Source: Nitrospirales bacterium LBB_01 (lineage in GTDB: Bacteria > Nitrospirota > Thermodesulfovibrionia > Thermodesulfovibrionales > Magnetobacteriaceae). Taken from it: a DNA stretch of 64,000 nt. Of this stretch, positions 6,852 through 34,804 are shown in pieces. The notes under the pieces were generated by a model that was given only the letters and a program-made list of their open reading frames with translations, had not been told where the DNA came from and searched no databases. The translations under genes were made by a program, and so were the position numbers. How positions within the stretch are numbered: the stretch's first letter is position 1; every line of letters starts with the position of its first letter. Where the stretch lies: the NCBI GenBank assembly GCA_004376055.2, contig CP049016.1, positions 2,604,001 to 2,668,000 of the forward strand. The letters run 5' to 3'.

Positions 6852-7188
6852 ATGATGTTCCCTCCTTTTTCAGAGTATTTAATAACCGACAACTATTTTA
6901 ATATAAATACGCACGATATTAAAACCACATACTTTAACCTGCAGGGCAAACGCATTTCACAGGAAATAATAATATATTGCCAATGCAGTGTAGCTTCGCT
7001 AAAAAACTGGATTCCTGCCTGCGCAGGAATGACAAAAAAAAGACATATCCTTCCTTGTCATTCCCGCCTCCGAGCGGGAATCCAGTCCTTTTCTCTAAAA
7101 ATTCTGCCTTGCAACAGAGAAGTCTTTTGCTGCTTTTTTCTCTAATGCGTTTCCCCTGCTTTAACCTGTGGTATTATGAAACTTTGCC
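6852..7188. other. Intergenic region holding a palindromic repeat
   Basis: This 337-base gap separates the DJ-1 gene start from the 3' end of the STT3-like gene. It holds the DJ-1 upstream region (AT-rich, 6860-6950) and one copy of the dispersed palindromic element (6976-7088). I see no convincing coding sequence. Confidence 0.7.
6976..7088 (+). repeat. Dispersed palindromic repeat, copy 1
   Basis: The left part reads ATTGCCAATGCAGTGTAGC, followed by two adjacent hairpins: ATTCCTGC/GCAGGAAT, and ATTCCCGC/GCGGGAAT. The whole hairpin block is bounded by CTGGATTCC and GGAATCCAG as an outer inverted repeat (7008-7086). The same arrangement, reverse-complemented, occurs at 29983-30119 and, truncated, at 47859-47921. 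This is a MITE- or REP-like element without coding capacity. Confidence 0.85.
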
Positions 7189-23418: not shown

Positions 23419-25110
23419 ATGCCGCTCTTGCATTGGCTCACACGCGATGACGATATTAAAGCCACTACGCGCACCCCTTACCGCTTGTTAGAGGAGGTGC
23501 GTGAGTTTTCGCACGGCGACCGCAACACCGGCAATATGCTGATTCAAGGCGACAACCTCGATGCGCTGAAAGCCTTGCTTCCCTATTATGCCGGAAAGGT
23601 GAAGTGCATTTTTATAGACCCGCCTTACAACACAAAAAGCGCGTTCGAGCATTACGATGACAACCTTGAACATACAAAATGGCTTGCCATGATGTATCCG
23701 CGTCTTGAAATGTTGCGCAGTCTATTATCAGAGGACGGGAGCATGTGGGTAACGATTGACGACAACGAGGCTCATTACCTAAAAGTGATTATGGATGAGA
23801 TTTTTGGACGGGCAAACTTTGTTAATCAAATTAGCGCAAAAATGAAACAAACTGCAGGCGCAAGCGGTGGTGGCGAAGATAAGAAACTAAAGAAAAATAT
23901 TGAATATCTTCTTGTGTATGCAAAAAATTATAATGGTTCAGGAGGGTTTAAGAAGTTTAATGATGTTTATGATGAAGAAGACTTATTTGAGCTAATTGAT
24001 GAAATGCGGGATGAAGGTAAAAGTTGGAAATATACGCGGGTTCTAAAAAGTTTGGGTACTAAGGAATTTGTTTCTAACATCACAGATGGTGCAGGAGAAC
24101 CTATAAAAATCTTTCGGCATAACGGTGTCGTTATGGAGCCAATTACTTATATTATGAATGCAGAAGGGATTTCAGAGAGAGATTGCTATATAAAATATTT
24201 CGACAAAATCTTCCGCGATACAAACGCTCAAAGCTCGATCAGAACTAGAGTTATGGAGGCTGTAGCTGGGCATGGCGATTTTTTCAGCATCGAATATATG
24301 CCACGATCTGGAAAAAATAAGGGAAGAACAACCAGACTCTATTACAAAGGCCAGAAATGCGATCTTATTGCATGGTTAAGCGACGTTGCAGTTAAGAAAG
24401 GTTCAAGGCTCCTGAAATTAGAAAAAACAGGTACATATTGGGAAGGCTTCCCACTGAACAATTTAACAAATGAAGGCGGTGTTCAATTTCCACAGAGCAA
24501 AAAACCAGAAGCTTTAATACATAAAGTAATAGAACTATCGACCCAACTAAATGATCTTGTCTTAGATTCTTTTGGTGGTTCTGGAACCACAGGTGCGGTT
24601 GCCCATAAAATGGGGCGGCGCTGGATCATGGTCGAGCTGGGCGAGCATTCCCATACGCATATAATCCCTCGCCTTAAAAAAGTAATTGCAGGTGAGGATA
24701 GCGGAGGTATTACCGAAGCCGTGGGATGGAAAGGCGGAGGCGGTTTTCGCTTCTATCGTTTGGGCGTTCCTGTGTTTGATGAAAGCGGCCATGTTTCTAA
24801 AGGGATAACATTCGCTCCTTTGGCTGCGCATATTTGGTTTATCGAAACCGGCATCCCTTTTTCTGGTCGCGCGGATGCCACTTTCCTGGGAAGCCATGAG
24901 GGCGTCGGTTATTATCTGCTTTATAACGGCATTTTGGGCGACAAACGACCCAACGGCGGCAATGTCTTGACAGCGAAAATGCTGTCCAGCTTACCGCCAC
25001 ATAACGGAGCAAAAGTCATTTTCGGAGAGGGCTGCCGCTTGAGCGCGGAACGATTGAACCGTGAAGGCATAACGTTTCGACAGATTCCCTATGAGATAAG
25101 GGCAAGATAG
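23419..25110 (+). CDS. mod: Type III restriction-modification DNA methyltransferase (Mod)
   Basis: A 563-residue N6-adenine methyltransferase of the type III Mod class (beta order). The catalytic motif IV is D67-P-P-Y70 (IDPPYNT), and the SAM-binding motif I, FGGSGTTG, starts at residue 385. The region between, about residues 135-385, is the target recognition domain. That middle part is visibly richer in A+T than both flanks, as expected if recognition domains are swapped between alleles. The gene is intact; its partner res, 12 bases downstream, is frameshifted. The cassette is G+C-richer than its surroundings, suggesting horizontal transfer. Confidence 0.92.
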   Translation: MPLLHWLTRDDDIKATTRTPYRLLEEVREFSHGDRNTGNMLIQGDNLDALKALLPYYAGKVKCIFIDPPYNTKSAFEHYDDNLEHTKWLAMMYPRLEMLRSLLSEDGSMWVTIDDNEAHYLKVIMDEIFGRANFVNQISAKMKQTAGASGGGEDKKLKKNIEYLLVYAKNYNGSGGFKKFNDVYDEEDLFELIDEMRDEGKSWKYTRVLKSLGTKEFVSNITDGAGEPIKIFRHNGVVMEPITYIMNAEGISERDCYIKYFDKIFRDTNAQSSIRTRVMEAVAGHGDFFSIEYMPRSGKNKGRTTRLYYKGQKCDLIAWLSDVAVKKGSRLLKLEKTGTYWEGFPLNNLTNEGGVQFPQSKKPEALIHKVIELSTQLNDLVLDSFGGSGTTGAVAHKMGRRWIMVELGEHSHTHIIPRLKKVIAGEDSGGITEAVGWKGGGGFRFYRLGVPVFDESGHVSKGITFAPLAAHIWFIETGIPFSGRADATFLGSHEGVGYYLLYNGILGDKRPNGGNVLTAKMLSSLPPHNGAKVIFGEGCRLSAERLNREGITFRQIPYEIRAR

Positions 25111-25122
25111 GAGAAAAGACTT

Positions 25123-27746
25123 ATGGAATTAAAAGACTTTCAGCGCACCGCTTTGGATACTTTAGCAGTGTATCTTGAGCGTGCCCGTATGTCCGGCGAT
25201 CCGGAACAGTCGTTTATTCGTACATTGCGGGAGCGCAAGCCTGATGAGCTGCCCCCGCCCTATCGTACAATTGCGAAACTTGAAGGCGTTCCCAACGTTT
25301 GCCTGCGCCTGCCGACAGGTGGAGGAAAAACCTTGCTGGCCGCACCACCATAGCCGTTGCAGGTAGGACGTATCTTGAGCGGGATTATCCAGTTGTGTTG
25401 TGGCTTGTGCCGACTAGCACAATCCGCACACATACAGCGGAGGCGTTGAAAAAACCATATCATCCCTACCGCGCAGCTATAGAAGACGCTTTTGCCGGGC
25501 GCGTGTCTGTATTCGATATTAGTGAGATTGATCAAATCAGGCCGCAAGATTTGACCGAGCGTGTCGCCGTTATTGTCGCTACGATTCAGACCTTACGCAC
25601 AAGCAACCCCGATGGACGCAGAGCTTACGCCCATTCGGAAAACTTTGAACCGCACTTCGCACAGATACCCCCTAATACGACAGGGCTTGAACGTGACGAA
25701 AAAGGCAATATCAAGTTTTCCTTTGTCAACCTTATGGCATATCACCGTCCTTTAGTTATTGTGGACGAAGCGCACAAGGCAGGCACCAAACTCTCTTTCG
25801 ATATGTTGGCTGCTTTGCGCCCATCTTGTATTGTTGAATTTACAGCTACGCCAAACACCGACCCGCAAAATGGGAGCAACGTATTGTTTAGGGCTTCCGC
25901 TGTCGATGTGAAGGCAGCGCAGATGATAAAACTTCCAATCATCCTTACCGAGCATCCCGACTGGCGCTCCGCCGTGCATGACGCTATAGAAAGACGCGCT
26001 CAACTGGCTGAAACTGCGAAAACCGACCCGCTCTGTATTCGTCCATTGACACTTTTTCAAGCTCAGGACAAAGGGCAGGAGGCGACCGTTGAAGTCCTGA
26101 AAAATCACCTTATCGAAAACGAAAATATAGCGCCGGAGAGAATCGCCGTTGCAACCGGTGAGCAGCGTGAACTGGATGCGATCAATTTATTTGACCCGGC
26201 TTGCCACGTTGACTTTATCATCACCGTGGAGGCGCTGAAAGAAGGATGGGATTGTTCGTTCGCTTATGTTCTGTGCTCTGTTGCAAACATCAGCAGCGCA
26301 ATAGATATAGAGCAGCTTTTAGGGCGCGTATTGCGTATGCCCTACGCGCAGAACCGCCCGAACTCAGCCTTAAATCGTGCTTACGCCCATGTCAATGCGC
26401 TCTTTGGCGAAGGTGCGCGCGCCCTCACTGATACGCTTGTACAAAAAATGGGCTTTGAACCAGACGAAGCCGCCGCCATGCTTCAACAGCGGCAACCCGG
26501 TTTGCCTGGATTCGGAACAAATGGCGATCTATTTAACCGCACCCCTGTTTTCCTCGAAACTGTGGACAGCGTACCGGATCTTACCGGCCTTGCCCAAGAT
26601 GTGGCCGAGCGTGTGCAGGTGGAAACGCGACCGGATGGAACCGTTACTGTTACCGTGCAGGGCGAGATTACCGACGAGTTGGAAGAGTGCCTTGTTGCCG
26701 CTGCGGCTCCCGACCGGCGCGATGCCTTGCGCGCTTCTGTTGGCCGTCACCGCGTTACGTACCGCAACAGCATTGCCCCCGTTGCACGCGGTGAGAAATT
26801 TGCAGTGCCGCGCCTGTTTTTGAACATTCAAGGCAAACTGGAATTTGTCGAAGAAGACTTGATCCTTGACCTTGGCGGCTGGACTTTGAACACCTGTGCG
26901 GCGGAATTATCACCGGTGGAATTTTCCATAATAGAAACTGCAGAGCGTTGGGAGGTGGACTTAAAAGGTGAAAAAGTGGAATATAGGCACCTCGACCAAA
27001 ACGTCCAGCTTGAGATTGGCACGCTAAAGCTGGACACGACGGACTTGCAGCTTTCCCGTTGGCTTGACAACCAATGCCGCCAGCCAGACATTACTCAGCC
27101 CGTGCTTTTAGAATTTTGCAGAAAACTGGTTGCCTACCTCATTGAGCGGCGCGGCATCCCGTTACAGGACTTGTTGCGCTTCAAATATCAGCTTGCCAAG
27201 GTTACACAGCAAAAAAAAGCGGATTACCGCAAACAGGCTTACGCTGTCGACTATCAAACATTTTTGTTTGCTCCCGAGGCGTCCGTTGAAACAAGTTTTG
27301 CCTACGGCTTCGCTTTCGAAAACCGCGACTATCCTGCAGCGTGGTCTTATCATGGCCGGTATCAATTCAAGAACCATTTTTTCGGCAGCGTAGGCGAGCT
27401 AAAAAGCGATGGAGAAGAATTTGAATGCGCTAAGTTAATAGACAACCACCCACAAGTGAAATACTGGATTCGCAATCTGTCAGGCCGTTCGCAAACGTCA
27501 TTTTGGCTGCCGACATCAACCGATCGCTTTTATCCCGATTTTGTCGCTGTACTCAAAGACGGGCGGATTTTGGTTATAGAATATAAGGGCGCGTTTCTTG
27601 CCGACACCCAGGATACTAAGGAAAAGCGCAACATTGGCGAGCTTTGGGCGGCAAAGAGCGGCGGCAAGAGCCTGTTTCTTATGGCAGAGAAAAAGAACGC
27701 CCAAGGGCAAGGACTTGAAGAACAAATCGCTTGTGCGATAGCGTGA
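25123..27746 (+). pseudogene. res: Type III restriction endonuclease subunit (Res), frameshifted
   Basis: The translocase/endonuclease partner of Mod. The first frame carries the helicase Walker A motif LPTGGGKTLLAA and then stops at 25351. The rest continues in another frame from about 25340 (TIAVAGRTYLERDYPVVLW) to 27746. One inserted base near 25345 would join them into a protein of about 875 residues. The continuing part keeps the DEAH box (VDEAHKAG), helicase motif VI (QLLGRVLRMP) and a C-terminal PD-(D/E)xK nuclease site (PDFVAVL...VIEYKG). As written, no functional Res is made. Either a real null mutation leaving a solitary methylase, or a sequencing error. Confidence 0.88.
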
Positions 27747-28005: not shown

Positions 28006-29517
28006 ATGTCAGGCATCAAGGTAGAAATACTTGAGGGGTTTCAAAAAGGCAAACGATTTGTCTTTAGCGATTTTTATGAAATAGTTGTTGGCCGCTCTAA
28101 GAATGCCAATCTGCAATTGGTAACCACAGACGGCTCAATTTCCAGAAGCCACTGCAAACTTGAGATGACGGAAAACCAATGTGTACTGTCCGATTTGGAA
28201 AGCAAAAACGGCACACTGGTCAACGGCAAGAAAATATCCAAACAGGTACTAAATTCCAGAGACGAAATAAAAATAGGGGATGTTCTTTTACGTCTGACAT
28301 TTGAAAAAACAGGCAGCACCCCTGTGTTATGCAGACTGTGCGGGGTTGAAATAATTAAATTCATCAGTTACGACGATGATGAGACAGACGCAGGAGACGC
28401 TCTCTGTGAGGAATGTCAGACAAACGAGGTTGAGACCTCTGAAAAGATTGACTTCTTTCCAAAGCCCCCAGATGATAAATCATCCGAAAACTGCAGCCGA
28501 TGTTCTAAAGACATCTCAGACCTTGCCGGCTCTGACGGTATGACTCCATTTTTCCCCCTTGCTGTGTATCTATGCCGTGATTGCACCAGCCGCATGGAGG
28601 ACAAGTCTCAGCATTTCGACTATGAGGACTTTTATGCAACCATAGGAGAGCTGGGACGTGGCGGAATGGGTGTTGTCTATAAAGCGGTGCAACGCAGTAC
28701 AGGCAGAGTGTGCGCAATAAAAAAGATTCACCCCTCAACTTTGGATGACCCCCGCCGGTTAAAACTCTTTGAGCGTGAGATGGCAGTTCAGTCTGAGGTC
28801 ACACACCCTAACCTCGTTGCCATTACCGACAAGGGCGCCTTTGGCTCAACATACTACTTTGTTACTGAGTTTATGCCGGGCGGAGATGTGTTAAATCTTA
28901 TGAAAAACTCTGCCCGTAAAACTATCTCCGTTAAGAATGCCTGTGCAATAACGGTTCAAATCCTTAAAGGGCTTAACGCTCTCCATAGCAGAGGGTTTAT
29001 TCACAGAGATATTAAACCCTCAAATATTTTACTATATAGCCTAAATCAGGAACAATCACCGGCAGCAAAAATATGTGATTACGGGCTTGCGAAGTCTTTT
29101 GAAAACGTGGGAGACTCGTTCTTTGATATAACCAGAACTCACGGCGGTTTTGCCGGCTCTCTCATGTACATGTCTCCGGAGCTTATCAAAAACTACAAGT
29201 ATTCAAAGCCCCCGGTTGATGTATATGCAACAGCGGTTACACTCTATTTTATGCTGACAGGCAAATACACCGTAGATATTCCTGATGAGCTCAAAAATAA
29301 ACCTATAACAGGAGAGAGTAAACTTATCAGACATCCGATAGACATTGTCTTAGAGGAGCCGCCGATACCAATACTGAAGCGCAGGTCTGATATTCCACCT
29401 GCGTTAGCTGAGGTAATAGATAAAGCCGTTACAAAGGACATTGAGGTAAGCTATCAGAGCGCCAATACGCTGTGTCTTTTGATAGACAATATTATGGAAC
29501 ACGAGGGTTGGAGATGA
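28006..29517 (+). CDS. FHA-domain Ser/Thr protein kinase
   Basis: A 503-residue signalling protein. Residues ~5-95 are an FHA phosphothreonine-binding domain (VVGRSKNANLQL, SRSHCKLEM, DLESKNGTLVNGK). Two CxxC pairs (CRLCG...CEEC at ~107-140, CSRCS...CRDC at ~165-195) look like small zinc ribbons. A Hanks-type kinase follows from about residue 215: glycine loop LGRGGMGVVYK, invariant Lys in AIKKIH, HRDIKPSNILL near residue 332 and MSPE. The DFG motif reads DYG, a tolerated variant. No membrane segment, so it is cytoplasmic. The gene is followed by a lipoprotein gene and a second, much larger kinase, suggesting a signalling locus. Confidence 0.9.
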   Translation: MSGIKVEILEGFQKGKRFVFSDFYEIVVGRSKNANLQLVTTDGSISRSHCKLEMTENQCVLSDLESKNGTLVNGKKISKQVLNSRDEIKIGDVLLRLTFEKTGSTPVLCRLCGVEIIKFISYDDDETDAGDALCEECQTNEVETSEKIDFFPKPPDDKSSENCSRCSKDISDLAGSDGMTPFFPLAVYLCRDCTSRMEDKSQHFDYEDFYATIGELGRGGMGVVYKAVQRSTGRVCAIKKIHPSTLDDPRRLKLFEREMAVQSEVTHPNLVAITDKGAFGSTYYFVTEFMPGGDVLNLMKNSARKTISVKNACAITVQILKGLNALHSRGFIHRDIKPSNILLYSLNQEQSPAAKICDYGLAKSFENVGDSFFDITRTHGGFAGSLMYMSPELIKNYKYSKPPVDVYATAVTLYFMLTGKYTVDIPDELKNKPITGESKLIRHPIDIVLEEPPIPILKRRSDIPPALAEVIDKAVTKDIEVSYQSANTLCLLIDNIMEHEGWR

Positions 29518-29598
29518 TTCAAATTCTAATTAAATCGCCTAACTTTGTTGGCTTCGTTATACTTCTGAATTAAAATTTGATTAACATTAGGAGGTAAA

Positions 29599-29919
29599 AT
29601 GAAAAAAATACTTAAATCGTTGCTGCTGTTGTCGGTTGTATTTTTGCTGCTGTCAGCTTGTGAAAAACAAGATAAAGAACCGGGAGTTGCAGATAAAGTT
29701 CAGGAGATGGCCAAATCACGAAAGGACGCACTTGACAACTCTAAGGTGGTGGCACAGAAAACTGAGCTTGCAAACCTCAAAGCAGCCATCAACGCATATA
29801 ACGCCGCTGAGGGCAGATTTCCAAAGGATCTGACAGAATTGGAACAGTTTTCCGGCTCAGCCATAGATAAAGGGGTTTACAACTATGACCCTCAATCTGG
29901 CGCACTGTCACTGAAGTAA
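29599..29919 (+). CDS. Lipoprotein with pseudopilin-like C-terminus
   Basis: A 106-residue exported protein. The signal ends in a lipobox LLSAC, so it should be lipidated at Cys20. After a charged linker, the C-terminal ~50 residues (LANLKAAINAYNAAEGRFPKD, LTELEQF, VYNYDPQSG) resemble the end of type II secretion pseudopilins (GspG), but there is no pilin-type N-terminus. AGGAGG precedes the ATG. It lies between two kinase genes; function unknown. Confidence 0.75.
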   Translation: MKKILKSLLLLSVVFLLLSACEKQDKEPGVADKVQEMAKSRKDALDNSKVVAQKTELANLKAAINAYNAAEGRFPKDLTELEQFSGSAIDKGVYNYDPQSGALSLK

Positions 29920-29982
29920 TTAAAATGCTTATTGAGTTAACTCCTGTAAATTTTTTTCAGTCAGCAAATGATACATTTAAAA

Positions 29983-30119
29983 GGACTGGATTCCCGCTCG
30001 TAGGCGGGAATGACAAAGGGGGACAATTTCTTTTTTTTGTCATTCCTTTTTTTCTTGTCATTCCTGCGAAAGCAGGAATCCATTTTTTTGTTTGCGGAGC
30101 TAACTGCATAGGCAATATA
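29983..30119 (-). repeat. Dispersed palindromic repeat, copy 2
   Basis: Reverse orientation to the copy at 6976. It reads GGACTGGATTCCCGC/GCGGGAAT, then an extra GTCATTCC segment, then ATTCCTGC/GCAGGAATCC, and ends TGCGGAGCTAACTGCATAGG. T-runs within it could also act as a weak terminator for the lipoprotein gene. Confidence 0.85.
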
Positions 30120-30205
30120 AGTAATGTTGAAACACAGATTATGGTTATATCTGTGTCCATCTGTGTTTAAATTTTTTTTAAGTTCCTTATGAGGAGAGCT
30201 TCTAA

Positions 30206-33200
30206 ATGGCGACACTGACCACAATATCACTCAAAGAGAAAGGGCTTTGGTCTAAAAACGATGTCATAGACAATCGTTACGATGTCAGGGGTCTTGCTCG
30301 CGGTGGCATGGGCGAGGTGTATTTTGTCTATGACCGTGAAATAGGCAGGATGATGGCGGTTAAGACTCCGCTTCCCTCGGTGCTTAAAAACGAGGAGGGT
30401 CTTAAACGTTTTTATCGTGAAGCTGAGGCGTGGATAAGTCTGGGGATTCACCCCAATATCTGCTCTGCTTACTATGTTCAGGTGATGGAGGGAATCCCTC
30501 GTCTTTTTGTTGAATACGTGGATGGCGGTGCTATGGACAAGTGGCTCAAAGAGGGACGCTTTTCAACGCTTATCGAAAAACTTGATATAGCAATTCAAAT
30601 AGCAGCCGGAATGGATCACACTCATTCTCTAATTTGGACAGACGAGGACGGAGTAGCTCAAACCGGTCTGGTTCACAGAGACCTTAAGCCGGCTAACATT
30701 CTTATGAGCAGATACGGGATGTCATTAATCACAGATTTTGGGCTTGTAGGACTTGGCAGTTGGGGAAATGATGAGACGTTAGCCGTATCAGAAAAAAACA
30801 AGAGTATGATAGAACTTGTGTCAAATCAAGCAGCAGACAATGATGACACCTCTAACCCGTGGCAGACTATGACAATAGGGGGAGTTCCATTTGGCACTCC
30901 TCAGTACATGGCTCCTGAGCAGTTTGAAAATGCTCACACTGCCGGAATCCCTGCTGATATTTATGCTTACGGCTGCATTCTTTACGAGCTATTTTGCGGG
31001 CGCAGACCGTTTTTGCTTACAGAAGAGCAAAGACATGCGGTGATTTTTTATCAACTAATGCTTTGGCAAAAAATGCACACAGGCGAGCCACCCCCGGTGC
31101 CCCAAGACTTAAGCCCAAATCTGGACGATGAGCTTTCCTCCCTCATGGTGGAGTGTCTTTCCAAAACTCCGATGGGCAGACCCGATAGTTTTAAAGAAAT
31201 CGCAAGCCGTCTTACGTCAATATACAGCCGTCTAATGGGTACTCCGTATCCACGCCCTGAGGCGAAGTCTGATGACCTTAAGGCCGACTCCCTAAATAAT
31301 CAGGGAGTCTCATACGCAACAATTAATCAGCTGCACCGAGCAGAAAGCAGTTGGAAAGAAGCGCTCACCGCTGAGCCTGAGCACGTTGAGGCCGCATTTA
31401 ACCTTACCATGCTAAAGTGTAAAACCGGAGAGCTGACAGAGGATGCCGCAGTGTCTGAGATGCGGGACTTTTTGCAAAGAATTCAACACACCGGAGCAGG
31501 AAAGTTTTTATTGGGGAAACTTCATCTTTTTTATGCCGATGAGCATAATGCCCTCAATCTAATAAACGAGGTAATCACTGAGGGTAAGGAATCGGCTGAG
31601 GCGCTAAAATTACAGGCTCTATCTATAGCTAACCGTGAAATTACAAAGCAGGACACGATGTCACTTAAGAAAGCCGCTGAGAGTTTTAAGTGGTTTTTAG
31701 ACAGCGGCAAAGAAGATCCGATAACGGCGGTAGGTTACTGCTACTGCCTTAGAGAACTTCAAGAGGACTACGCCGCACTCTATGACTCCATGAGAGGGCG
31801 TTTTATAGAACTCCCTGACTCTCTTGATGATGCCGCAAATCAGTATCTGCCAGGGTTTTCAGTGCAAAGGACATATTTTGACGAATTCCGAGCGCCATGC
31901 TCACTATCGGTATCAGGTGACGGGCAGCATATCTATGCCGGAATGAGTGACGGTCACATAAATGTTTATGATATAGCGTCAGAGACTCCGGTAAGTGTGT
32001 TTAAACTGAGTTACGGCAAAGTCACAGCTATAGATATAAATCCTAAAGGGGAGAGTATAGCCTCTGGGCATGAGGACGGTTCAGTGCACATTCTTAATGC
32101 CTCTGATGGAAGCGAAATATGGGCTTTAAAAAAACACACAAAAGCTGTGTCGGCAATTAAGTTTCTGGCTTCAAAAAATTACGTTATATCAGCCTCATCA
32201 GACGGCACAATTTTAGTGTGTGATATTAATACTGGGAAAAGCGCAGGAGCATTTAAAACAGAGGGAAAACCGGTAACAGCACTTACTCTCTCCCCTGATT
32301 TAAAACAGGTTTATACCGCCCACAAGGGGGCGCCGCCGTGTGTGTGGGAAACTAAAAACGGAAAACCTATTCGCACATTTTCGGGTCATAGCAGAGGAGC
32401 TGTCTCTATTGCTCTAAGCAGCAACGGTAAACTTGCCGTAACCGCAGGATCAGGACAATCGCAGGTGATTTTATGGGACGCCGTGTCAGGAAAAAACATT
32501 CACACATTCTCTGGTCACACAAGCCCTGTAGCTTATGTGGGAATTAGCGCTGATGGCAAGTTTTTACTCTCCGCTGACGAAACAAATCTCAGGGTGTGGG
32601 ATATAAAAAGCAAACTTACACACAATGTTTTTAAATACAGGGGGCCGCTTAAATGCGCCGCTCTGGGGTTAGCTGAAAATAAGCTTACAATTGCACACGG
32701 CAACGAGATAATGGTGCTGAATTTTCATGCCCGGTACTCTTTGTCATATACACTGGTAACTCCTGCCTCAATCCGTGAAGAGGAGATACGATACGAGTTT
32801 TCTAAAAGACTTTCCGGAGCGGCTCAAAAAATCAGTCAATCAGAATTTACTGAGGCACTAAATTTAATAGAGGGCGCAAGGAGTCTGACAGGTTTCGAAC
32901 AACACCCTGCAGCAATAGAGCTCTTAACCTCAATCCCACAAATGTATAGTAAACATTTTCTAAAATCCGGATTTAAAGTCAGAGAGTATCTGCATCATAC
33001 CGATTCTGTAAACGCTGTTGTATTAACCTCTGATGACAAATATCTGATAACAGGCAGTGACGATGGCAAAGTGATAAGAGCTGACACTTCCTCCCCCTCA
33101 TCTGAGTTGACAGAAATTGCAGGACTTGGGTCAGTAAAAACGCTTGCAATAGATTACACGTCACACACTATGTGCTTTGGCAGTGCTGATGGGAAAATTC

Positions 33201-34804
33201 AAACGTGGGATTTAGATAAAAGTGAGCGTCTGAGCGATTTAAAAGTCCCTGTGGGATCAGTAACAACGGTAGCATTAACCTCTGACGGCAGATACGCTTT
33301 TTCGGCATCCCCGGAAAGAACCATCCGCCTGTTTGATGCGATACACGGCAGATACTATGGCAGATTTGAAGAAAGCGCCGATGAGATAACATCCATTGCG
33401 CTGCATAACGAGGAAAGAACGCTAATCTCAGGCACAGTGAAAGGACTCATCATGTTTTGGGACAGTGTAACGGGTAAATCGTTGGCAAGCGTTGAGGGAC
33501 ACACGGGATCTGCAAACTCAATATCATTCAGTACTGACGGACAACAATTTCTTACCGGAGGTCAGGATGGTTATGTTTGTGTTTGGGGCACAAATACTAT
33601 GAGACGAGTTAAACGTCACAGGGTGTCAAATAAAGGAGTGTTAAGCGCCGTGTTTCATCCGGATGGGAAATGCTTTGCAGTGGGAACATCAGATGAGACA
33701 ATAAACATCCACAGTGTTGAAAGCGGTGAGCTTTTGGTAACCCTTTCTGGACACACCGATGGTGTAAACGCTCTGGTGTTTAGCGCAAATGGCTGGTACT
33801 TGTACTCTGGCGGCAAAGATGCTGCTGTAATACAGTGGTTTCTTGACTGGGAACTCTCGGAGGAGCCGGATATTAAAACTGAACAGCCGCTTAAGCAGTT
33901 GGGAGCAGCCTCCGGCAAATCGCCGATAATGCGCCCGTCTCTCATTCAAGAGGAGATAGCGAAAAAGCCGACCGCCTCAGAAATACAAAATAGGGCAGAA
34001 GTGAAAAAAAATAAATTTTTGTCAGTCGCCTTAGCTATTTTGGTGGTAGTTCTCGTTGGAGCTTACTACGTATATCAGAGCACGGTTACAAAATATAACT
34101 CAGCCGAGATTAACAAAAAAACAGAAGAGGACAGTTATTTTGCTTTAGTGGCAGAGTCTTTAAAATCACTTGATAAACCTGCCTCAGGGTGCAAAGCATC
34201 TGAATTTGACTCATACAGGGAAAGCTATATCGTATTCATAAAAAAGAGCCGTGCATCGGTTCAAGCGGCATATCCAAAGAGTATTGAAAACATCACCTGT
34301 CTTTTATCCCATCGCAAAGATGCTGCAACGGTAAAATCACTGATTTCAGAGATGGTCAAAGCCGCCGACCCTGCCGATTCACAAGCATTAGAGTATCTGT
34401 TGGCTTATATGGGAAACGATATGCTTGTACCACTTTCGGGCTTGTTACACGATGAGCAATTTGTAAAAGGAAACCCTGAGGGAGCAAACCGGATTGTTCA
34501 TGTGCTGTCAGCTATTGCAACCGATGAGACTGTTAATGAGCTTATTAAACTAATGTCGGAAACGCCGACACTCACTGGCATAATATCGCCGTTTTTGGGT
34601 AAAATCATATCATCCGGCAAAATAGAACCCGCAAATGCGCTGGCTCTCATTGAAAATTTACTAAATAACTCTGACTACAAAGTAAGAAAGGATGCAGTGG
34701 CTGCGCTTAAATATTTTAAAGGCTCAAAAGCAAAAGACCTTCTTGCCAAAGGCTTATCGGATTCAAACAGCGAGGTTACAGATGAGGCGAAGAAACTTCT
34801 TTAA
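30206..34804 (+). CDS. Giant Ser/Thr kinase with TPR, double WD40, TM and HEAT
   Basis: A 1532-residue protein. Residues ~28-335 are a Hanks-type kinase (LARGGMGEVYF loop, K53, HRDLKPANIL near 157, TDFGLVG near 178, MAPEQF). A TPR-like helical region follows (~350-545). Then come two blocks of WD40 repeats, about 560-845 and 930-1215, which could each form one propeller, split by a helical insert around 850-925. A single membrane helix (FLSVALAILVVVLVGAYYVY, ~1271-1290) leads to a C-terminal helical region ending in HEAT-like repeats (SDYKVRKDAVAALKYFKGS). The kinase and propellers should face the cytoplasm, the HEAT part the periplasm. GAGGAGAG precedes the ATG. Ligand and targets unknown. 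Confidence 0.88.
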   Translation: MATLTTISLKEKGLWSKNDVIDNRYDVRGLARGGMGEVYFVYDREIGRMMAVKTPLPSVLKNEEGLKRFYREAEAWISLGIHPNICSAYYVQVMEGIPRLFVEYVDGGAMDKWLKEGRFSTLIEKLDIAIQIAAGMDHTHSLIWTDEDGVAQTGLVHRDLKPANILMSRYGMSLITDFGLVGLGSWGNDETLAVSEKNKSMIELVSNQAADNDDTSNPWQTMTIGGVPFGTPQYMAPEQFENAHTAGIPADIYAYGCILYELFCGRRPFLLTEEQRHAVIFYQLMLWQKMHTGEPPPVPQDLSPNLDDELSSLMVECLSKTPMGRPDSFKEIASRLTSIYSRLMGTPYPRPEAKSDDLKADSLNNQGVSYATINQLHRAESSWKEALTAEPEHVEAAFNLTMLKCKTGELTEDAAVSEMRDFLQRIQHTGAGKFLLGKLHLFYADEHNALNLINEVITEGKESAEALKLQALSIANREITKQDTMSLKKAAESFKWFLDSGKEDPITAVGYCYCLRELQEDYAALYDSMRGRFIELPDSLDDAANQYLPGFSVQRTYFDEFRAPCSLSVSGDGQHIYAGMSDGHINVYDIASETPVSVFKLSYGKVTAIDINPKGESIASGHEDGSVHILNASDGSEIWALKKHTKAVSAIKFLASKNYVISASSDGTILVCDINTGKSAGAFKTEGKPVTALTLSPDLKQVYTAHKGAPPCVWETKNGKPIRTFSGHSRGAVSIALSSNGKLAVTAGSGQSQVILWDAVSGKNIHTFSGHTSPVAYVGISADGKFLLSADETNLRVWDIKSKLTHNVFKYRGPLKCAALGLAENKLTIAHGNEIMVLNFHARYSLSYTLVTPASIREEEIRYEFSKRLSGAAQKISQSEFTEALNLIEGARSLTGFEQHPAAIELLTSIPQMYSKHFLKSGFKVREYLHHTDSVNAVVLTSDDKYLITGSDDGKVIRADTSSPSSELTEIAGLGSVKTLAIDYTSHTMCFGSADGKIQTWDLDKSERLSDLKVPVGSVTTVALTSDGRYAFSASPERTIRLFDAIHGRYYGRFEESADEITSIALHNEERTLISGTVKGLIMFWDSVTGKSLASVEGHTGSANSISFSTDGQQFLTGGQDGYVCVWGTNTMRRVKRHRVSNKGVLSAVFHPDGKCFAVGTSDETINIHSVESGELLVTLSGHTDGVNALVFSANGWYLYSGGKDAAVIQWFLDWELSEEPDIKTEQPLKQLGAASGKSPIMRPSLIQEEIAKKPTASEIQNRAEVKKNKFLSVALAILVVVLVGAYYVYQSTVTKYNSAEINKKTEEDSYFALVAESLKSLDKPASGCKASEFDSYRESYIVFIKKSRASVQAAYPKSIENITCLLSHRKDAATVKSLISEMVKAADPADSQALEYLLAYMGNDMLVPLSGLLHDEQFVKGNPEGANRIVHVLSAIATDETVNELIKLMSETPTLTGIISPFLGKIISSGKIEPANALALIENLLNNSDYKVRKDAVAALKYFKGSKAKDLLAKGLSDSNSEVTDEAKKLL

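Follow-up and report, generated by a model that had tools for sequence, protein, structure and literature searches.

A Linked FHA-Kinase, Lipoprotein and WD40-Kinase Gene Trio of the Magnetobacteriaceae as a Possible Envelope-to-Cytosol Phosphosignalling Unit

Gene content and domain architecture of the locus

The window analysed here is a 64,000-nucleotide stretch of the genome of Nitrospirales bacterium LBB_01, which is 3.27 Mb long and consists of one contig. It carries three genes in a row on the plus strand. The first encodes FHAK-A (28006–29517), a 503-aa protein with an FHA domain, two zinc ribbons and a Ser/Thr kinase domain, the second LIPO (29599–29919), a 106-aa lipoprotein with a pseudopilin-like part, and the third a giant kinase of 1,532 aa (30206–34804). 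An original prediction made from this DNA had placed three open reading frames (ORFs) at these coordinates and on this strand, and our re-check bore this out. Our analysis showed that the three genes are linked and co-occur in the Magnetobacteriaceae, the family of this genome. Judged from their sequences, they may form one envelope-to-cytosol Ser/Thr phosphosignalling unit, and we consider this about as likely to be right as wrong. The original prediction, taken as a whole, was partly supported.

The FHA domain of FHAK-A (aa 26–91; 28081–28278, plus strand) matched Pfam FHA above the cut-off (E 8.9e-17). The key set for phosphothreonine binding in FHA domains is Arg, Ser, His and Asn. A lack of the Arg and Ser ligand residues had been named as a finding that would speak against the original prediction; Arg30, Ser46, His49 and Asn68 were all present, and the core G29, R30, S46, R47, H49, N68 and N73 was invariant in 27/27 aligned FHA-kinases. 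The domain is predicted to bind phosphothreonine. Two CxxC..CxxC zinc-ribbon-like motifs follow on the same strand, recognised by their Cys pattern: C109, C112, C134 and C137 (28330–28416), and C163, C166, C190 and C193 (28492–28584). Six of these eight Cys were invariant and two nearly so among 27 proteins (one row being shortened by trimming), and both motifs probably bind zinc. They had been described as insertions; the motifs are there, but they make up the linker joining the FHA domain to the kinase. The kinase domain itself (aa 210–478; 28633–29439, plus strand; Pfam Pkinase E 9.1e-48) has an intact G-loop, Lys, HRDxKPxN and DYG.

The domain order in the giant is kinase-TPR-WD40-WD40-TM-HEAT, TM being a transmembrane segment, and all parts are read on the plus strand. 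Its kinase domain (aa 30–327; 30293–31186) matched Pfam Pkinase at E 1.9e-34. Both FHAK-A and the giant have the features of Hanks-type Ser/Thr kinases, namely a Pkinase match above the cut-off, the Lys, the HRD and a DFG-type motif (DYG in FHAK-A, DFG in the giant), and the catalytic motifs of both were preserved in the window proteins and in those relatives whose sequence covers them. The long activation loop of the giant holds the conserved WQTMTIGGVPFGTPQYMAPE, and WQT[MI]T[IL]G was kept in all 12 giants with the loop covered. The first Thr of this motif has Ile or Leu at +3, which is favoured by some FHA domains, and for this reason it is our first candidate for a docking site. A weak TPR match lies at about aa 360–411 (31283–31438). 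Many Pfam WD40 matches were found from aa 566 to about 860 and from 925 to about 1215, which we delimited as a first block at about aa 566–805 (31901–32620) and a second at about aa 925–1215 (32978–33850). An N-terminal kinase and a C-terminal WD40 array thus occur in one chain, as in PkwA-like WD40-kinases.

Hydropathy analysis revealed a single TM in the giant at aa 1271–1289 (34016–34072), with KKNK just before it. A strong TM was present at the matching place in 13/13 orthologues, three rows having an extra weak or overlapping segment. The part after the TM is a predicted periplasmic helical/HEAT domain (34079–34801; HEAT_2, hydropathy, model). It has exactly two Cys (1329 and 1365 in the window), in the same columns and 36 residues apart in 13/13 orthologues, a pattern as expected of a periplasmic structural disulfide. 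This suggests that the giant is oriented with the kinase inside and that a disulfide may brace its outer domain. HEAT_2 matched aa 1480–1527 with E 4.1e-08 and 33.8 bits (cut-off 27.7), which identifies a HEAT repeat in the last ~50 aa. The structural model of the outer part had a mean pLDDT of 68.9, good in the last 130 residues and mostly low at model residues 30–109, and the best Foldseek matches of this middling model in the PDB were alphaRep/HEAT-like solenoids (E down to 3.1e-4). The predicted HEAT-like periplasmic end accordingly stands by sequence for about the last 50 residues, and the preceding region appears as a helical solenoid in the middling model alone. In one relative (G013, L077:8427-13216) the giant is spread over two frames, with the break near its N-terminus, owing to a frameshift or an assembly error.

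LIPO consists of a signal peptide, a lipobox LLSAC (Cys21), a helix and a C-terminal pseudopilin-G-like part. The signal peptide and lipobox Cys predict lipidation as in bacterial lipoproteins, and the lipid Cys was invariant in 25/25 aligned members. In six rows (L073, L074, L076, L077, L058 and L064) the first Cys of the chain lies inside the signal peptide and is distinct from the aligned lipid Cys. Pfam T2SSG matched 21 of the 25 members at E<=0.1 (best 1.2e-4); the window LIPO scored 15 bits, below the gathering cut-off of 21. With a lipobox in place of the prepilin-type signal and a sub-threshold T2SSG match, it does not classify as a type II secretion pseudopilin G by signal and score. 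Its model (pLDDT 81) shows two helices, one long and one short, and a beta hairpin. Foldseek with this model gave no match at E<=0.001. In VIA the PulG pseudopilus was the top row (Z 5.4, root-mean-square deviation 3.9 over 81 residues), with unrelated rows at Z 3.9, and such a Z is possible by chance. A sequence search of the PDB with the LIPO profile placed pseudopilin G at E 0.5–1.3, below a BamD chain. Of the proposed "pseudopilin-like lipoprotein", the lipoprotein part stands, and the likeness to pseudopilins is weak but consistent across T2SSG, the PDB profile search, the model and VIA.

Conservation and linkage of the three genes

We searched 19 genomes of the Magnetobacteriaceae, several of them incomplete, and a phylum sample of 395 genomes (13 of the family and 382 outside it). 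Rare co-occurrence of the three genes had been named as another finding that would count against the original prediction. Instead, they were found to co-occur in a fixed order within the family. The outer half of the giant was present, over nearly the full profile, in 13/19 genomes, and LIPO in the same 13; two of the others (G008 and G009) have a solo LIPO relative and four have none. FHAK-A was found in 12 of the 13 giant-bearing genomes, and in the remaining one (G017) the contig ends ~145 nt beyond LIPO. The gene order is FHAK-LIPO-giant. FHAK-A and LIPO are adjacent in all 12 genomes where both are visible, with a gap of −17 to 28 nt in nine measured relatives and the ends often overlapping. 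LIPO and the giant are adjacent in 10/13, with a gap of 19–153 nt in eight relatives. G010 has ~4.8 kb of other genes between them, with ORFs that we take to be of the Rpn-like nuclease kind, and in G012 and G014 the two parts lie on different, broken contigs. The whole trio is missing together in G007, G011 and G018 (the last only 64% complete). The flanking genes differ among genera (some neighbours being left unannotated), which indicates that the trio persists in changing surroundings.

In the phylum sample, the outer half of the giant was found in nine of the 13 family genomes, and the full outer domain in none of the 382 others, 15 of which had weak partial matches (26–37 bits) in the C-terminal HEAT-rich stretch. 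Mean identity to the window giant was 75% for the kinase and 40–52% for the propellers, TM and HEAT part, as expected if the input varies and the output stays constant.

Paralogous FHA-kinase loci

Full-length relatives in an FHA-zinc-ribbon profile search were found in 12/13 sampled Magnetobacteriaceae genomes and in G393, which belongs to another family; FHA-only matches were found in four other genomes and in G009. The FHA-kinases of the Magnetobacteriaceae fall into distinct types, among them A (the trio), B, C and E. In a kinase tree, FHA-kinases and giants formed two separate groups, and type A and B FHA-kinases were sisters; some branches of this tree are long (G393, G006, E and F types), and we use it for grouping only.

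Within the 6 kb downstream of the FHA-kinase, a WD40-kinase is encoded on the same strand in 10/13 type A, 8/13 type C and 1/1 type E cases, counted from a list of giants cut at E 1e-40 that misses the type C pair of G007, which was seen separately. Type C was followed by a PP2C-FHA-cyclase-like protein in 11/11 loci (cyclase being a weak NCBIfam match), and its locus usually also has a second WD40-kinase giant lacking the TM-HEAT end. The FHA-kinase, PP2C-FHA-cyclase and kinase-WD40 giant are arranged like an operon (L009:6153-9412, G000:C1:835423-839130), an arrangement kept across most of the family; the giant of this type bears an N-terminal CxxC..CxxC motif. In genus g2, the type C giant lies apart from its FHA-kinase in every one of the four genomes. 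Type E occurs in G003 (nDJH6bin1), of the same genus as the window genome, where the FHA-kinase is followed by two near-identical WD40-kinases; these tandem giants (L120:6307-14999) look like a recent duplication. The row in G393 comprises an FHA-kinase, a small ORF, a PP2C, a protein without an assigned family and a kinase-TPR protein. FHA-kinases are thus repeatedly paired with a WD40- or TPR-kinase, whether or not LIPO is there, and the recurrence of this pairing in paralogous loci lends independent support to a functional coupling of FHAK-A and the giant. The family also has a further group of kinase-WD40 proteins of 2,141–2,274 aa with many WD40 repeats (L087, L088, L099 and L100).

The PP2C phosphatase with an FHA domain at locus C could also be taken as a sign that the kinases regulate a type VI secretion system (T6SS) post-translationally in the manner of PpkA-PppA-Fha. 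There is a precedent in A. tumefaciens, where, according to the part of the source available to us, a switch based on phosphothreonine is made up of the kinase PpkA, Fha and TssL, a membrane protein (PMC3953482). The sheath protein VipB, however, was above the cut-off in 0/19 Magnetobacteriaceae genomes, one sub-threshold stretch with stops being seen, and we rejected T6SS control on this ground as very improbable.

Type B differs in its neighbours, coming after fliD, a PilZ protein, motA and motB (names read from sequence). This arrangement was seen in genera g1 and g2 (G000:C1:846539-848008, which is L010:8530-10017; L089, L090, L103, L104 and L105), and a link of Ser/Thr phosphorylation to the flagellar stator is possible. 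Taking these loci together, we tentatively propose, as a rather doubtful extension, that the FHA-double-zinc-ribbon kinases might be the hubs in a network of phosphothreonine signalling peculiar to the Magnetobacteriaceae, each connected through its neighbouring genes with a distinct input or output: type A to the envelope-sensor giant and a repurposed LIPO, type B to motA-motB, and type C to a WD40-kinase and the PP2C-FHA-cyclase. Envelope signals, a second messenger and swimming would then be coupled by FHA docking.

Proposed signalling unit and its alternatives

If the trio is one signalling unit, it might work as follows. The giant would be held in the inner membrane by its one helix. Its kinase, its TPR and both WD40 propellers would lie inside, and its HEAT-type solenoid, braced by a disulfide, outside. 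LIPO, lipid-anchored on the periplasmic side and with a pseudopilin-like head, would be a partner or ligand carrier of this solenoid. A change outside would alter the kinase activity of the giant. Once the giant is active, the FHA domain of FHAK-A would bind one of its phosphothreonines, for which the conserved Thr in the long activation loop (Thr221 and Thr223) are the first candidates. FHAK-A, docked in this way, would be phosphorylated or brought to its substrates, so passing the signal on.

Several points weigh against this reading. The LIPO family was found in 75/395 genomes of the phylum sample, 64 of them among the 382 outside the Magnetobacteriaceae, and its relatives are usually solo, as they are within the family in G008 and G009. 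We fetched 17 non-trio LIPO loci and read 15 in detail (L052 and L055 were left out). No recurring partner across families was found in these 15 solo loci, save a transporter-like neighbour in two; in one of the 17 (L062, from G041) a 676-aa protein matching the kinase part of the giant lies ~1 kb off on the other strand. The LIPO family appears to be older than the trio and to have been recruited into it. Its place in the pathway is suggested by linkage alone and seems the weakest link of the proposed unit. G006 has an FHAK-A-like gene and neither LIPO nor giant-A, indicating that FHAK-A can work without the other two, and type B FHA-kinases had a WD40-kinase within 6 kb downstream in 0/8 cases. 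The identity of all giant domains tracks species divergence, so that their co-variation adds no support and was not used as evidence of co-evolution. The gaps in the window (81 nt between FHAK-A and LIPO, 286 nt between LIPO and the giant) are wider than in most relatives, and the second contains two palindromes with T-rich, terminator-like tails (30006–30079, plus strand), so read-through may be damped and co-transcription weaker in the window genome.

The short palindrome with a T-rich tail between LIPO and the giant (30058-30081) has the form TCATTCCTGC....GCAGGAATCC, which also occurs at 7009-7032. These two matches in the window, against 0 expected by chance, have the look of a dispersed repeat.

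The distribution of LIPO makes it a serious contender, which we hold somewhat less probable than an even case, that FHAK-A and the giant are a functional pair and LIPO is an old stand-alone envelope protein lodged in their operon, with no direct signalling role. The family in 64/382 outside genomes, the unrelated neighbours in the 15 loci read, and the FHA-kinase/WD40-kinase pairs at loci C and E, which lack LIPO, all fit this. A mere lodger, on the other hand, would hardly be expected to accompany giant-A in 13/13 genomes and to sit always right behind FHAK-A where the contig allows, often overlapping it; also, a search for a second LIPO copy in the window genome found none. It is also conceivable, though unlikely, that the two kinases serve unrelated pathways and merely share a neighbourhood. 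FHAK-A alone in G006 and FHAK-B beside motAB without a WD40-kinase are in keeping with such independence; the return of this pairing in three locus types or more, and the joint absence of the trio from G007, G011 and G018 (64% complete), argue for coupling.

Were the trio indeed one phosphosignalling unit, uncultured magnetotactic bacteria would possess a complete eukaryote-like phosphorylation chain from envelope to cytosol whose sensor, transducer and phospho-reader genes are neighbours, and the LIPO family, present in roughly one in five of the phylum genomes sampled, would gain a testable role. The recurrent FHA-kinase/WD40-kinase pairing is a general clue to the partners of orphan bacterial Ser/Thr kinases. 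Because every domain was already known, the surprise is moderate; what appears new is the fixed combination, the WD40 on the kinase side with HEAT outside, and FHA-zinc-ribbon-kinases nearly restricted to the Magnetobacteriaceae. Our literature search revealed no description of the trio, its topology or the FHA-zinc-ribbon-kinases in the available text of the papers found.

Neighbouring genes and genome context

A type III restriction-modification pair lies upstream of the trio at 23419-27746 (PADLOC MTase_III 468 bits, REase_III 598 bits). Its res gene looks broken, because the first ~80 residues with the Walker A lie in another frame. The kinases could in principle form an anti-phage defence set with these genes, which directly precede them in the window, and the PADLOC kinase models mad6 and PD-T4-6 matched both kinases; mod/res-like proteins (read from sequence) also occur near the FHA-kinase of G006. 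The matches to these two kinases, however, cover the kinase domain only, bar one match in the WD40 region of the giant, the window res frame is broken, and the trio is inherited in the same build by different genera, whose flanking genes vary. We consider a defence role quite improbable and did not favour it, since the PADLOC matches are essentially to the kinase domain.

Most magnetotactic Nitrospirae genomes fall in the Magnetobacteriaceae, a family of magnetotactic bacteria only, and nDJH6bin1 is one of the representative magnetotactic Nitrospirae, according to the available portion of PMC8353452. The window genome encodes MamK (469 bits, cut-off 400) and MamM (389 bits, cut-off 350) by NCBIfam. 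Its magnetosome cluster (L128, G000:C1:2416000-2434000) also has MamP-, MamQ- and MamE-like proteins below their cut-offs. This cluster is ~200 kb from the trio, and 6/19 Magnetobacteriaceae genomes are without the giant; therefore, we claim no special magnetosome link.

Comparison with known systems

The C-terminal helix and YP..YDP-type head of LIPO resemble those of GspG/PulG, whereas LIPO has a lipobox and no prepilin signal, and its T2SSG match is below the gathering cut-off. PpkA/PppA/Fha control of T6SS resembles the present set in having a Ser/Thr kinase, a PP2C, FHA proteins and phosphothreonine reading; unlike those systems, the Magnetobacteriaceae have no T6SS sheath gene above the cut-off.

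PkwA of Thermomonospora curvata has an N-terminal Hanks kinase and C-terminal WD40, an order that PkwA-type kinases share with the giant. The giant differs in having two propellers with a TM and an outer domain of HEAT type behind them, and in its fixed FHA-kinase partner. Fusions of WD40 with a kinase are frequent among Cyanobacteria and Planctomycetes, as stated in the accessible text of PMC5587647. In Ca. Uabimicrobium and other Planctomycetota, membrane Ser/Thr kinases with TPR or WD40 are predicted to place these parts in the periplasm, as far as the consulted part of PMC11032199 goes. They are like the giant in combining kinase, TPR or WD40, and TM in one protein; in the giant, however, the WD40 and TPR would be on the kinase side and the HEAT part alone outside.

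OdhI is an FHA protein. In the accessible parts of PMC9769921 and PMC8546545, the lipoprotein GlnH, the membrane protein GlnX, the TPR-kinase PknG and OdhI form one chain in C. glutamicum, in which GlnH and GlnX govern PknG and PknG phosphorylates OdhI. To that extent, this chain is like the trio: a lipoprotein outside, a TM protein, a kinase with TPR, and an FHA protein inside. The trio is not of the PknG type proper, which has a separate TM partner and a stand-alone FHA substrate, for its TM and kinase-TPR parts are in one chain, to which WD40 propellers are added, and its FHA domain is fused to a kinase. The outer part of the giant resembles HEAT proteins, and LIPO is pseudopilin-like and no periplasmic binding protein. 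By analogy, the giant may be broadly like GlnX and PknG joined in one chain, and FHAK-A like an OdhI-type reader with a kinase of its own.

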